This document shows positions 2,303 through 22,418 of a stretch of DNA of 46,216 nucleotides, in pieces. The DNA comes from Anaerocolumna sp. (GTDB taxonomy: Bacteria; Bacillota; Clostridia; Lachnospirales; Lachnospiraceae). Under the pieces are notes generated by a model. It was not told the origin of the DNA, made no database searches, and saw only the letters and a program-made list of their open reading frames with translations. Each line of letters begins with the position of its first letter. Within the stretch, counting starts at the first letter, position 1. The DNA is taken from positions 1-46,216 of the forward strand of contig JAQZAX010000019.1 in assembly GCA_029239455.1 (NCBI GenBank). The letters run 5' to 3'. A program made the translations under genes and the position numbers.

Positions 2303-4162
2303 CTATTCCTCGCCTTTACTTAAAAGTCCAAGAGGCTCTGCCTTTAAATTATTTTTCATAAAGAAAAATGCAATCAATAGAGCCATAAGAATCACAACGA
2401 GGCACAAAAGAATTGGTATCACAGGGTCATTCCCAGCACCAGTAGTGCTAAGCTTTGCCATCTTATCGGAATTATTAACCCAGTTACTATAAGCAGTACT
2501 ATAGAGTTCTTCTCCTCCTACCGAATCTGCCATAACAACTCCGGTGATTTTAAAACCCAGAAAACTTCCTGCCATTGCTCCTATAGATATGACACCCAGT
2601 ATTCCGTAAAGCATTGATAAAATACATTCCTTCTTACTCATACCAAGAGAGCGTTCTATTGCGGTACGCTTCTTCTGTTTTGTAATGAATAAGAATATAA
2701 AAAAGAACAGAATGGCAAGGGTTGTTACTCCACTCACCGCAACAAGTATCAGTGCAACCATCTTAAGATTTCGCATCCCAGAAGCCAGTTTCTCATAACC
2801 TCCGTCATAAAAGCTAATTTCCAGATTGTCTATCCCTAAAGCCTGAAATTTCTCCATGTATTCCTTGGTTGTACCATTCTTAATCTGGAAAGAGGTGGTG
2901 TAGCTTTTCATGGGTCCATAGTCAGCTATGTTGTTCTCATCGCTATTTTTCACCGACTTGGAAGGAATCACCACAGCGTTATTTCCTATTTCATAACCAG
3001 TGGGATTATTATTTTGATTTGTACCGCTGTATATACCCACAATTTCATAATCGCTGTCTTCAAACACAGGATATGCCTCTCCCTTTGCATTCAGTAAGGA
3101 ATAATGTAATATACCTCCACCCGACGGAAAAAAACTTAAACTCGCTGATCTTTTATAATCTGAATAATATAATCGTAAGTTAATTTTATCTCCAACCTTT
3201 AACTCATTTCTTCCTGCAAATCTCTGGGGTAGAATGCATACCTTTTCCCCACTTATATACTCCTCCTCTGTAATGTCTCGTCCTTGGGATATGGATACAT
3301 TCCCCTGGTGAAAATCCATGAGGAGTCCTGTTTTATTAGTAGGAATAACAGGAAAAGTGTATCTGATAAACTGATCCGATACTTCTGCTATGGCTTCCCA
3401 ATTCTGTCCCTCTTTCGTTTCATAAAATTGGTCTGTAACCTCTGTCCAATCTTGAATATATGTATTTTCCCCCTTTATCTTTTCACCTTTTTTATTCATC
3501 TGATTTGATATAGTGAAATTGTATGGCACCGCATATGGTAATGACTGGTACTTTGCATCACTGAATGGACTAAAGCTTGGCTGAATCGATGTAATATAGG
3601 TTTTACCGGCTTTTAGTAACCCAGGATTATCATCATATTGGGCACAAAACCAAATGTCCTCTCCTTCTTTCCGGCTGCCCCCAAGAACTCTTGTTATTTT
3701 TACCTTTACCGGCTCAGTGGGAATAGCATCTTCATAAGGCATGAATTCTATAATAGAAACCCAATTTCTTACTGACTCTTCTTCAAGTTCTTCCGGCCGG
3801 ATTTTAATACCTGGAGTATAAGCTCCGTAAAAAGGTCTCTGCTCTGGTGGGGTAATATAATTTGCTCCTTCAAAATCTAAGAGAGAGACCGGCAGGATGG
3901 AATCATAAATTGGTTCATCCTGATAGGTATACTCCTTGGTCGAAGCATCCCAAGTTTCTGTGACCTTAACAGTGTTTTCTTTTTGATTCACTACTCCTAT
4001 TGTCGTAAAAACCTCCTCGTACTCCTCCATGTTTTTGTTACTGGCTTGCCAGAGATTCACACCCAGAGAAAGAAACGTGACCGTCAGTATCATCAGCAAA
4101 AGAAAACTAATTACTCTTGCCTTTGTCCTTCCTATTTGTTTTAAACTATTTTTCAGTAACAT
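2303..4162 (-). CDS. FtsX/MacB-like ABC permease (copy A)
   Basis: N-terminal TM, large extracellular region, C-terminal TM block (MVALILVAVSGVTTLAILFFFIFLFITKQKKRTAIERSLGMSKKE). Paralogue of 4655-6514. Confidence 0.85.
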   Translation of the reverse strand: MLLKNSLKQIGRTKARVISFLLLMILTVTFLSLGVNLWQASNKNMEEYEEVFTTIGVVNQKENTVKVTETWDASTKEYTYQDEPIYDSILPVSLLDFEGANYITPPEQRPFYGAYTPGIKIRPEELEEESVRNWVSIIEFMPYEDAIPTEPVKVKITRVLGGSRKEGEDIWFCAQYDDNPGLLKAGKTYITSIQPSFSPFSDAKYQSLPYAVPYNFTISNQMNKKGEKIKGENTYIQDWTEVTDQFYETKEGQNWEAIAEVSDQFIRYTFPVIPTNKTGLLMDFHQGNVSISQGRDITEEEYISGEKVCILPQRFAGRNELKVGDKINLRLYYSDYKRSASLSFFPSGGGILHYSLLNAKGEAYPVFEDSDYEIVGIYSGTNQNNNPTGYEIGNNAVVIPSKSVKNSDENNIADYGPMKSYTTSFQIKNGTTKEYMEKFQALGIDNLEISFYDGGYEKLASGMRNLKMVALILVAVSGVTTLAILFFFIFLFITKQKKRTAIERSLGMSKKECILSMLYGILGVISIGAMAGSFLGFKITGVVMADSVGGEELYSTAYSNWVNNSDKMAKLSTTGAGNDPVIPILLCLVVILMALLIAFFFMKNNLKAEPLGLLSKGEE

Positions 4163-4654: not shown

Positions 4655-6514
4655 TTATTCCTCACCTTTACTTAACAGTCCAAGAGGCTCTGCCCTTAAG
4701 TTATTCTTAATGAACAGAAATGAGATCAAAATCGCTACAAGAATCACAATAAGGCTCAATAGGATTGGTATTATAGGATTATTCCATGTACCTGAGGTAC
4801 TTAGCTTTGCCATCTTATCGGAATTATTGACCCAGTTACTAAAAGCAGTGCTATAGAGTTCTTCTCCTCCCACCGAATCTGCCATAACAACTCCGGTTAT
4901 TTTAAAACCAAGAAAACTTCCTACCATTGCTCCTATAGATATGACACCCAGGATTCCATACAACATTGAAAGAATACATTCCTTCTTACTCATACCAAGT
5001 GAGCGTTCTATTGCAGTACGCTTCTTCTGTTTTGTAATGAATAAGTATATAAAAAAGAACAGAATGGCAAGAGTTGTTACTCCGCTGACCGCTACAAGTA
5101 TTAGTGCAACCATTTTAAGATTTTCCATCCCAGAAGCCAGTTTCTCATAACCTCCGTCATAAAAACTGATTTCCAGATTGTCAATACCCAATGCCTGGAA
5201 TTTCTCCATGTATTCCTTGGTCGTACCATTGGGAATCTGGAACGAGGTAGTATAACCTTTCATTGGTCCATATGAAACAATATTGTTTTCTTCACTATTT
5301 TTTACAGAATTCGCGGGTATGATTACTGCATTATTCCCTAGTTCATAGCCTGTAGGCTTATTGCTCTGATCTGTGCCACTATATATGCCAACAATCTCAT
5401 AATAACTGTCTTCAAATATGGGATACGCTTCTCCTTTGGCATTTAATAATGTAAAGTCCATAGAAACGGTTCCCGAAGGAAAAAATGTTAAACTTGATGA
5501 TTTTTCATAATTTGAAAAATATAGTTTTAAATTAATTTTATCACCAATTTTCATATTATTTCTTCCCACAATTACCTGAGGCATAATACATACTTTCTCC
5601 CCATTCTCATACTCTTCCATTGTGATGTCCCTCCCCCTGGAGATGGTCACATTCCCCTGATGAAAATCCATAAGCAACTTTGTATTATTAATTGGAACAA
5701 CTGGAAAGGTATTTATAAGCCGATCGTATGCTTCAACCAAAGCTTCCCAGTTCTGTCCATCTTCATTTTCGTAAAAATGAGCATTGACCTCTTCCCAATT
5801 TTCCAAAAATGAGAGTTTTTCCTCAATTATTTTACCACTTTTATTTGTCTGAGTTGAAATAGTTGGATTATATGGATTTGATTCATAATATGCCTTTGGA
5901 TCTGAATCAAGATGCATATTCGGCCATGACTGGATTGCCGTTACATAAGTCTTCCCTGCCTCCAGCAATCCTGGATTATCATTAAAGTGGTCACATAGCC
6001 AGATATCTGATCCTGCCTTGTGACTGATACCCCAAATTACTTTGGTCACCTTCACTTTTGTCGGCGATCTTGGAATAGTATCTTTATAAGGCATGAATTC
6101 AATAATAGAGCCTAACCTTTTAATTTCAATTTCTTCTTCCTCTGGCAACCAGATTTTAATATTCGGACTATATGCCCCGTAATAAGGTCTCTGTTCCGGT
6201 GGCGTAATATAATTTACCCCTTCAAAATTTAAGAGGGATACCGGCAGAATGGAGTCATAGATCGGTTCATCCTGATAGGTATACTCCTTGGTAGAAGCAT
6301 CCCAGGTTTCTGTTACCCTAACAGTATTTTCCTTTTGGTCAACAACACCAATGGTCGTAAATACCTTCTTATATTCCTTCAAATTCTCATTACTGGCTTG
6401 CCACAAATTCACTCCCAAAGACAGAAAGGTGATTGCCAACATTATTAGTAGTAGAAAACTAATTATCTTTACTTTTGTTCTTCCTATTTGTCTTAAACTA
6501 TTTTTCAGTAACAT
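4655..6514 (-). CDS. FtsX/MacB-like ABC permease (copy B)
   Basis: 619 aa, same length as and highly similar to 2303-4162, especially the N-terminal TM and C-terminal ~200 aa. Confidence 0.85.
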   Translation of the reverse strand: MLLKNSLRQIGRTKVKIISFLLLIMLAITFLSLGVNLWQASNENLKEYKKVFTTIGVVDQKENTVRVTETWDASTKEYTYQDEPIYDSILPVSLLNFEGVNYITPPEQRPYYGAYSPNIKIWLPEEEEIEIKRLGSIIEFMPYKDTIPRSPTKVKVTKVIWGISHKAGSDIWLCDHFNDNPGLLEAGKTYVTAIQSWPNMHLDSDPKAYYESNPYNPTISTQTNKSGKIIEEKLSFLENWEEVNAHFYENEDGQNWEALVEAYDRLINTFPVVPINNTKLLMDFHQGNVTISRGRDITMEEYENGEKVCIMPQVIVGRNNMKIGDKINLKLYFSNYEKSSSLTFFPSGTVSMDFTLLNAKGEAYPIFEDSYYEIVGIYSGTDQSNKPTGYELGNNAVIIPANSVKNSEENNIVSYGPMKGYTTSFQIPNGTTKEYMEKFQALGIDNLEISFYDGGYEKLASGMENLKMVALILVAVSGVTTLAILFFFIYLFITKQKKRTAIERSLGMSKKECILSMLYGILGVISIGAMVGSFLGFKITGVVMADSVGGEELYSTAFSNWVNNSDKMAKLSTSGTWNNPIIPILLSLIVILVAILISFLFIKNNLRAEPLGLLSKGEE

Positions 6515-20666: not shown

Positions 20667-20738
20667 TAAGAATCTGGAATTGTTTTATAAGCCTCGAATA
20701 TATTTAATTAAGTTCTTTTATTGAAATCAAAGGGGATA

Positions 20739-20832
20739 AGTGTGAAAGAAAATTTAGAAAATGAAAGGTTGCCACAGTGTGATTCTTTCACTCCTTTTTA
20801 TTTGTGGCAGTATCGCAGGCATACCTGCGATA
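20739..20832 (+). ncRNA. Structured element copy A (candidate RNA; function unknown)
   Basis: Interleaved helices GTGAAAGAA(20742-20750)/TTCTTTCAC(20783-20791) and TGCCACA(20770-20776)/TGTGGCA(20803-20809), plus hairpin TATCGCAGG-CATA-CCTGCGATA (20811-20832). Confidence 0.55.
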
Positions 20833-20844
20833 TAGGTGGGTATA

Positions 20845-20938
20845 AGGTTGAAAGAAAATACAATGAAAGAAAGGATTGCCATAAATAGATTCTTTCAACC
20901 TATTTATTTATGGCAGTATCGCAGGTGTACCTGCGATA
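20845..20938 (+). ncRNA. Structured element copy B (candidate RNA; overlaps start of flippase ORF)
   Basis: AGGTTGAAAGAA(20845-20856)/TTCTTTCAACCT(20890-20901), TGCCATAAATA(20877-20887)/TATTTATGGCA(20905-20915), hairpin TATCGCAGG-TGTA-CCTGCGATA (20917-20938). Confidence 0.55.
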
Positions 20939-22418
20939 TGCAACTCGAATTATTGGATTTTTCTATCGCGTCTATCTCTCCAATGCCATGGGAGCGGAAA
21001 AACTGGGCATCTATCAGTTAATATTTCCTATCTACGGTATCGCCTTTACTATATTTGCATCCGGAATTCAGACCGCTATATCTAAATTCGTGGCAACAGA
21101 ATTAGGAAGACATCATTATAAAAGTATTAACAGAACTTTAAAAATGGGACTCATCCTATCCGTTAGCATCGCGTTAGTAATCTCATTTCTGACCTACCAG
21201 TATGCAGATATTTTAGCAGGAAATGTATTAATGGAACCAAGAAGTGCAGATTCCCTTCGTATACTTGCATTTGCATTTCCATTCTGTGGCGCAACTGCAT
21301 GTATTAATGGCTATTATTATGGACTAAAAAAAGCAGGAGTTCCTGCTATGACCCAATTATTTGAGCAGCTGGTACGTGTTCTATGCGTATATTTTTTAGC
21401 TACCTATCTAGGTAATGGAGATCTTCGTGTTACCCACGAAATGGCTGTATTCGGCATCGTAATCGGCGAAGTCGCATCTAACCTTTATAACATTTTTTCC
21501 CTTGCAATCAGCAATGCACCAAAAGAAATGCGCCATTTGATGAAAACTGACAGATTCCAGGCATTAGGAAAAAGAGCCATTACAGGTAACCTCCTTCGCT
21601 TTAGTGCACCTCTTACCGCCAATCGACTTCTGATTAGTTTATTACATAGCCTTGAGGCAATATTAATTCCGAACCTGTTACGACAATCGGGCCTTAGTAA
21701 TGTAGAAGCATTAAGCATCTACGGTATATTAAACGGTATGGCAATCCCATTTATTATGTTCCCTTCGGCAATTACTAATTCCTTATCCGTATTATTATTA
21801 CCGACAATTTCAGAAGCACAAGCGGCAGATAATATTTCGCTTATCCGGAAAACAACAGCGTTATCCATCAAATATAGTTTATTAATTGGCATTTTAGGAG
21901 CCGGTATCTTTCTGAGTTTTGGCCAGTCTCTAGGAAATGTTGTGTTTCATAATCAGCTTGCCGGAAGCCTTATTACGACTATGGCCTGGTTATGTCCTTT
22001 TCTTTACATTACAACAACATTAAGCAGTATAATAAATGGGATGGGCAAGGCACATTTAACCTTTGTTAATTCAATCATAGGGCTTGTAACACGTATCCTG
22101 TTAATGCTATATTTAGTTCCAAGAAGCGGTATCAATGGATATTTAAACAGTCTACTAATCAGCCAACTAGTAATTACCGCATTTGACGGAATCATTGTTA
22201 TTAAGAATATTCGTCCTCCCTTTCACGCTATTGATTGGATACTAAAACCAGGTATTATCATTACTTTATGTAGTTATATCCTGTACCGAATCTACGAATA
22301 TATCTCCCCTAGCCATGGAGGTATCTTAATATTACTGGGCTTTTGCCTGGGCCTAACGGTTTTGTACTTAATATTTTTAGGAATTACAAAAGCTGTTTCC
22401 TTGAAAGATTTTAAGTAA
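20910..22418 (+). CDS. SpoVB/MATE-like polysaccharide flippase (MVF superfamily), N-terminus apparently altered
   Basis: ATRIIGFFYRVYLSNAMGAEKLGIYQLIFPIYGIAFTIFASGIQTAISKFVATE; multi-TM throughout. No SD near ATG 20910. Confidence 0.85.
   Translation: MAVSQVYLRYATRIIGFFYRVYLSNAMGAEKLGIYQLIFPIYGIAFTIFASGIQTAISKFVATELGRHHYKSINRTLKMGLILSVSIALVISFLTYQYADILAGNVLMEPRSADSLRILAFAFPFCGATACINGYYYGLKKAGVPAMTQLFEQLVRVLCVYFLATYLGNGDLRVTHEMAVFGIVIGEVASNLYNIFSLAISNAPKEMRHLMKTDRFQALGKRAITGNLLRFSAPLTANRLLISLLHSLEAILIPNLLRQSGLSNVEALSIYGILNGMAIPFIMFPSAITNSLSVLLLPTISEAQAADNISLIRKTTALSIKYSLLIGILGAGIFLSFGQSLGNVVFHNQLAGSLITTMAWLCPFLYITTTLSSIINGMGKAHLTFVNSIIGLVTRILLMLYLVPRSGINGYLNSLLISQLVITAFDGIIVIKNIRPPFHAIDWILKPGIIITLCSYILYRIYEYISPSHGGILILLGFCLGLTVLYLIFLGITKAVSLKDFK

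Follow-up and report, generated by a model that had tools for sequence, protein, structure and literature searches.

Bacterial mobile elements normally avoid genes or break them. Repeats of the REP/BIME, BOX and ERIC types are dispersed and palindromic and lie between or after genes; the Rickettsia palindromic elements are inserted in frame within open reading frames (ORFs) and are translated; IS200/IS605-derived and RAYT-REP elements have a hairpin near one end, without inverted terminal repeats or a long target duplication. In the Beggiatoaceae, many sets of TAACTGA heptamer repeats stand just 5' of the start codons of unrelated genes, and a role in translation has been suggested for them (PMC4679880). 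MRSC-65-2, a mobile or repeat candidate from a survey of non-coding RNAs, has UYCCGG repeats and occasional links to transposases (PMC11109978).

The locus described here lies in a stretch of 46,216 nucleotides (the window) from Anaerocolumna sp. (assembly GCA_029239455.1, contig JAQZAX010000019.1). At the start of a flippase gene are two imperfect copies of a unit of ∼105 nt, which an earlier note, made from the sequence alone, had described as structured elements with a helix P1, an interleaved helix P2 and a terminal hairpin, P3. Both copies are present with their helices (Table 1), and direct repeats at a spacing of 106, together with inverted repeats, were recovered independently in the window. 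The compensatory differences named in the note are also correct: the P1 pair 20742:20791 is G-C and its counterpart 20848:20898 is T-A, while the P2 pair 20775:20804 is C-G and its counterpart 20882:20910 is T-A. It is likely that the two units are stacked copies of a non-autonomous, structured mobile element that targets the translation initiation region. Position between the Shine-Dalgarno sequence (SD) and the start codon is the key feature, and the note had missed it. Elsewhere in the window, the minus strand has two adjacent ORFs of equal length (619 aa), at 2303-4162 and 4655-6514.

Table 1. Features at the start of the flippase gene, in window coordinates.
Feature	Position	Strand	Basis
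Host sequence AAGGGGATAA, SD-like stretch and TAA, presumed left target half	20730..20739	+	Sequence; directly 5' of copy A
Copy A, sub-family A, GTGTGAAAG...GGGTATAA, tail AGGTGGGTATAA	20740..20845	+	Sequence; alignment of 24 near-identical family-A copies of the same genome; covariation
Helices of copy A	P1 20742-20750/20783-20791; P2 20770-20776/20803-20809; P3 20811-20819/20824-20832	+	Sequence
Copy B, sub-family B, GGTTGAAAG...GATATGCAA, without 3' tail (TGGGTATAA)	20846..20943	+	Sequence
Helices of copy B	P1 20845-20856/20890-20901; P2 20877-20887/20905-20915; P3 20917-20925/20930-20938	+	Sequence
TGCAA, probable microhomology junction of a deletion	20939..20943	+	Alignment with the empty site in G003, G004 and G007; microhomology presumed
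Flippase ORF (Polysacc_synt/MatE, SpoVB/MurJ-like), N-terminally truncated	20910..22418	+	Pfam

Across 74 diverse copies, 93.8% of pair cells are standard (P1 93.4%, P2 95.9%, P3 92.8%), and 147 cells are double-changed; column shuffles give 44 such cells and slid controls 20-27. Because the structure recurs and its double changes exceed those of the controls, its presence in the window is not due to chance, and the conservation of nucleic-acid structure deduced in the note is borne out. P1 and P3 are recovered by RNAalifold unaided. P2 is strongly paired, nearly invariant within the genus and covarying in remote copies, where it takes forms such as TACCACA/TGTGGTA, TTGCCCA/TGGGCAG, CTGCCCT/GGGGCAG and CTGCCATAT/ATATGGCAG. 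P1 and P2 are arranged in pseudoknot topology and all three helices covary. The terminal hairpin, which the note called invariant, is in fact the most covarying helix, with double changes in eight of nine pairs. The note recognised no matching Rfam family, and scanning agrees: no Rfam covariance model reaches its gathering score in the window, weak scores for microRNA families fall far under that mark, and 18 related loci yield only a lysine riboswitch and a T-box, both elsewhere in their loci.

The placement of the unit relative to genes was counted over 169 distinct copies, collected irrespective of genes. An ORF start follows 147 of them, at a distance of 0-4 nt in 143 cases; of the remaining 22, 14 are succeeded by one more copy in the same register, 3 by another hairpin module and 4 by a short ORF's ATG, and 1 reaches the end of its locus. 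The copies sit in sense orientation relative to the downstream gene, between its SD and its start codon. The genes downstream are housekeeping genes, unrelated to one another and with canonical starts; they include those that, from their N-terminal sequence, we take to be triosephosphate isomerase (TpiA) and RimM, and such N-termini show the starts to be true. The unit opens 2 nt ahead of an NTG that is in register with the SD of the host and takes the place of the start codon. At the 3' end an SD-like GGTG and then TAA lie 0-4 nt before the gene start. In 125 non-tandem copies the two bases immediately 5' of the unit are A in 84 and 89%, and the 3' end of the element is also AA. This position rule also holds in other genera, and in a shorter variant found there, which has two plain hairpins but no P2 5' strand and closes with GCAGGAGGTGTAA ahead of the start codon.

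Pairing of the tail with the anti-SD has a mean energy of -6.3 kcal/mol (141 copies), against -3.4 kcal/mol inside the element and -11.3 kcal/mol for the native SDs of empty sites (n = 12); presumably the gene remains translatable after insertion, less strongly than before. In simple, pseudoknot-free folding the initiation site is not more accessible with the element, its opening energy lying 0.9 kcal/mol above that obtained with a shuffled body, and the idea that the structure frees the initiation site of the gene is unsupported by folding.

Copies run to dozens per genome. The window's own genome is a draft of 2.46 Mb in 185 contigs, 75% complete. A similarity search of it, with both copies as queries, produced 95 candidates, 40 of them scored matches; its copies form two sub-families and occur singly or as A-B pairs. 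A strict pattern has 47 matches in this genome, 74 in G010, 21 each in G012 and G007, and 0 in G003 and G004, and the reversed pattern used as a control has 0. Among the matches listed in a scan of species representatives, the hosts are Anaerocolumna, Robinsoniella, Mobilisporobacter, Herbinix and related Lachnospiraceae, and a covariance model places the element in 17 of 397 sampled Lachnospiraceae genomes (15 genera). Loci L277, L288, L289 and L291, from other Lachnospiraceae, have two-hairpin modules in tandem arrays, including a third module type (AAGATTGAAAATTTAAATTTTCAATCTCCCTGATTTGTATGCCCGC..GCGGGCAGATGGGAGC). On one contig of KNHs205 (L123, 6462 bases), copies of identical sequence lie close to each end and face opposite ways, which may be an artefact of assembly or of a plasmid.

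The closest relative, G003, whose DNA is 84% identical in the first part of the window that matches, offers a view of the same genes without the element. It is a 63%-complete draft and the sole close relative used in this comparison; 14 short matches to element-bearing genes of the own genome were obtained, 12 of them comparable, and at all 12 the element is absent from the start codon. Most sites have well-aligned flanks, which place the insertion between SD and start codon, as in GAGATAA^TTATG (empty) vs GAGATAA[GTGTGAAAG..GTGTAAA]TTATG (filled) and AGGAATTAA^TTATG vs AGGAATTAA[GGGTGAAAG..GTGTAAA]TTATG; a further empty site reads GGGTGAAA^TTATG. A two-base target duplication, or a core AA, is possible. 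The 12 empty sites argue that the own genome gained these copies since the split from G003, 12 clean losses being less likely, and loss at single G003 sites is possible, given one relative with a 63%-complete draft. Of the options set out in the earlier note, the empty sites and the many copies in unrelated contexts thus favour a mobile element.

G003 and the own genome share a decayed older copy 5' of tpiA (L258 in G003, L017 in the own genome); its P3 differs by an apparent compensatory change, CACA/TGTG vs CGCA/TGCG, and in L017 a new copy lies directly 3' of the older copy's tail. At rimM (L025, own genome), a shorter second hairpin element (GTGTGAATTTGTGCCGG..CCCGGCATGTCTGGAA), absent in G003, shares the SD-start gap with the copy, stacked ∼47 nt 5' of it, and modules resembling it, made of a hairpin and CATGTYTG, precede copies in L039, L048, L055 and L057. 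In L048 (1505-1650) and L073 (∼3326-3407) the P2 3' strand is interrupted by a small inserted hairpin (ATAGAATGC..GCATTCTAT), and in L048 the apparent TGTGGCA duplication points to a nested mobile hairpin.

The pair of copies in the window is an atypical, damaged case of the general position rule. The upstream region can be aligned to the empty G003 site up to about the host SD-like stretch, directly before copy A. Downstream, the tail is intact in other family-B copies (GCAATGGGTATAAA-ATG); in the window, alignment with the empty site of relatives shows copy B to be tailless and the flippase to be ∼18 N-terminal codons short. The relatives have a longer N-terminus, their matches beginning at query residue 7-11. 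At the break, TGCAA is common to the element tail and the flippase gene. A deletion after insertion probably took the tail of copy B, the native start codon and ∼18 flippase codons; as it now stands, the ORF has its first in-frame ATG within copy B (P2 3' strand), without a good SD. In G003 and eight further relatives with a readable start, the flippase start is element-free, and in G002 it has only a P1-like hairpin.

These observations can be joined in a scheme in which the element moves by recombination at the AA that separates the SD from the start codon. The right end of the element would mimic the left half of the target (SD and TAA), so that insertion would rebuild a working initiation region and stay tolerable: a host SD-TAA-NN-ATG would become SD-TAA-NN-NTG(element)...GGTG-TAA-NN-ATG, with re-entry possible. 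Tandem stacking may be explained in the same way, since insertion would recreate the target, and integration may be driven by the likeness of the tail to that target. The folded body would be required by the mobile lineage and moderately maintained in place, and the copies probably act as the 5' leader of the gene. In the window, two rounds of insertion would have been followed by the deletion that removed the tail of the gene-proximal copy and the first flippase codons.

What moves the element has been sought among known enzymes. Y1, reverse transcriptase and IS110 are each lacking in some copy-bearing genomes; no transposase, integrase or autonomous copy of the element came to light in these searches, and 2.27 Mb of locus sequence contains no long ORF-bearing version, apparent half copies being mostly full copies with a changed motif. 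An element of REP or IS200/IS605 type, moved by a Y1 (HUH) transposase acting on single-stranded DNA hairpins, would be small, without inverted ends, with a terminal hairpin and in a single orientation to its target, as seen here; its position would then reflect a short target and the purging of harmful insertions. This reading is nevertheless unlikely: the single-contig, copy-bearing genomes G010, G007, G005 and G009, like G006 and G011, have no match to a Y1 transposase, and a short target predicts copies in dispensable genes or intergenic DNA, where none of the 169 copies is found. No IS110 recombinase was detected in G005 and G007. Y1, reverse transcriptase and IS110 were each rejected as mobiliser, since no one of them occurs in all genomes with copies, though old copies can persist with no enzyme present. 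Of the hallmarks of MITEs, inverted ends are absent and the target duplication is at most AA. A group II intron derivative was discarded because there is no Rfam match and reverse transcriptase is not constant in the hosts, and an integron attC-like site (with P1 as GTTGAAAG...CTTTCAAC) was set aside by reasoning, as its boxes come in the opposite order and a single insertion has no second box.

If the element were instead mainly a cis-regulatory RNA, a riboswitch or protein-binding leader that spread through a regulon by useful regulation, its sense orientation, 5' position and conserved pseudoknot would be expected, as would constraint on copies in place. Such constraint exists. Many copies are common to orthologous genes of G011, G012 and G014, and over 25 independent orthologous pairs the stems diverge by 6.2% and the loops by 10.7% (Fisher p 0.0002), with flanks at 19% upstream and 8.7% in downstream DNA. 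Pairing is kept in 35 of 65 single stem changes (p 0.0005 against one third, an expectation that is our own estimate and assumes a strong transition bias), and kept double changes among orthologous copies number only one. Recent copies of the own genome vary by 2.1% in stems vs 5.1% in the P1 loop and linker. These figures suggest moderate selection on the inserted fold, with gene conversion as an alternative for part of the constraint. Spread through regulation is all the same rather improbable. The downstream genes share no function, strict matches go from 0 to 47 between close species, and the next species lacks the element at orthologous sites. Conservation upstream of flippases, by which the earlier note would have recognised regulation, fails in the relatives and amid diverse housekeeping genes, and a riboswitch or other cis-regulatory family of Rfam was also rejected for want of a covariance-model match.

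Movement through RNA, in which an mRNA leader enters the initiation sites of other mRNAs and is reverse transcribed and recombined into the chromosome, would account for the sense orientation, the exclusively transcribed targets and the conserved RNA fold. It is very improbable, with no reverse transcriptase domain in the single contigs G005 and G009, in G011 or in the own draft, and no match to a ribozyme family in Rfam. G012 has 24 reverse-transcriptase matches, many with identical scores, vs none in the related G011, which looks like a recent retroelement burst, probably of a group II intron. Least credible is a leader peptide (MKENLEKERLPQCDSFTPFYLWQYRRPTCDMRWV in family A) acting via translation coupling or attenuation: in family A the frame from the element GTG does end at a TAA just 5' of the gene, but over 131 copies the GTG/TTG frame is not conserved, ending near the gene in 40, stopping early in 42 and scattered in the rest, and single-base indels are common. 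The earlier exclusion of coding stands by this genus-wide frame test, though not by the indels between the two window copies alone, which are +1 and -1.

The preferred reading remains that of a mobile element landing in the translation initiation region. A wider proposal, which we hold tentatively and at slightly less than even odds, is that it represents a class of mobile element with this region as its target, recognised by an enzyme or by RNA, and that it serves as a structured, portable 5' leader by which translation of dozens of genes in a genome is reset. If true, the choice of target is hitherto undescribed: a precise and repeatable landing between SD and start codon of housekeeping genes, with the initiation site rebuilt, by which the leaders of dozens of genes would be reset between sister species. 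Sister species have the same genes with and without the element at the start, which provides a ready comparison for the effect of leader structure on translation.

Like REP/BIME, BOX and ERIC repeats, the element is short, structured, multicopy and non-coding, with tandem occurrences; unlike them, it occupies the SD-start gap in one orientation and has an SD-like tail of its own and a pseudoknot. With the Rickettsia palindromic elements it has in common that a small mobile repeat is tolerated where translatability is needed, but it keeps no reading frame, and translation uses the start of the gene itself. IS200/IS605-derived and RAYT-REP elements resemble it in the near-end hairpin and in lacking inverted ends and a long target duplication, whereas several of its hosts are Y1-free and its left helix is at the very end. 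MRSC-65-2 is likewise a structured motif with dozens of copies per genome, but it differs in its UYCCGG repeats, and the main text of that survey leaves Lachnospiraceae unmentioned (PMC11109978). The nearest analogue is the set of TAACTGA repeats, which differ in being 7-nt unstructured tandem units with little SD character and no hairpins (PMC4679880); outside subscription papers, no description of an element between SD and start codon was found. The kind, a small dispersed repeat, is known; the target and the design are, as far as we can find, new.
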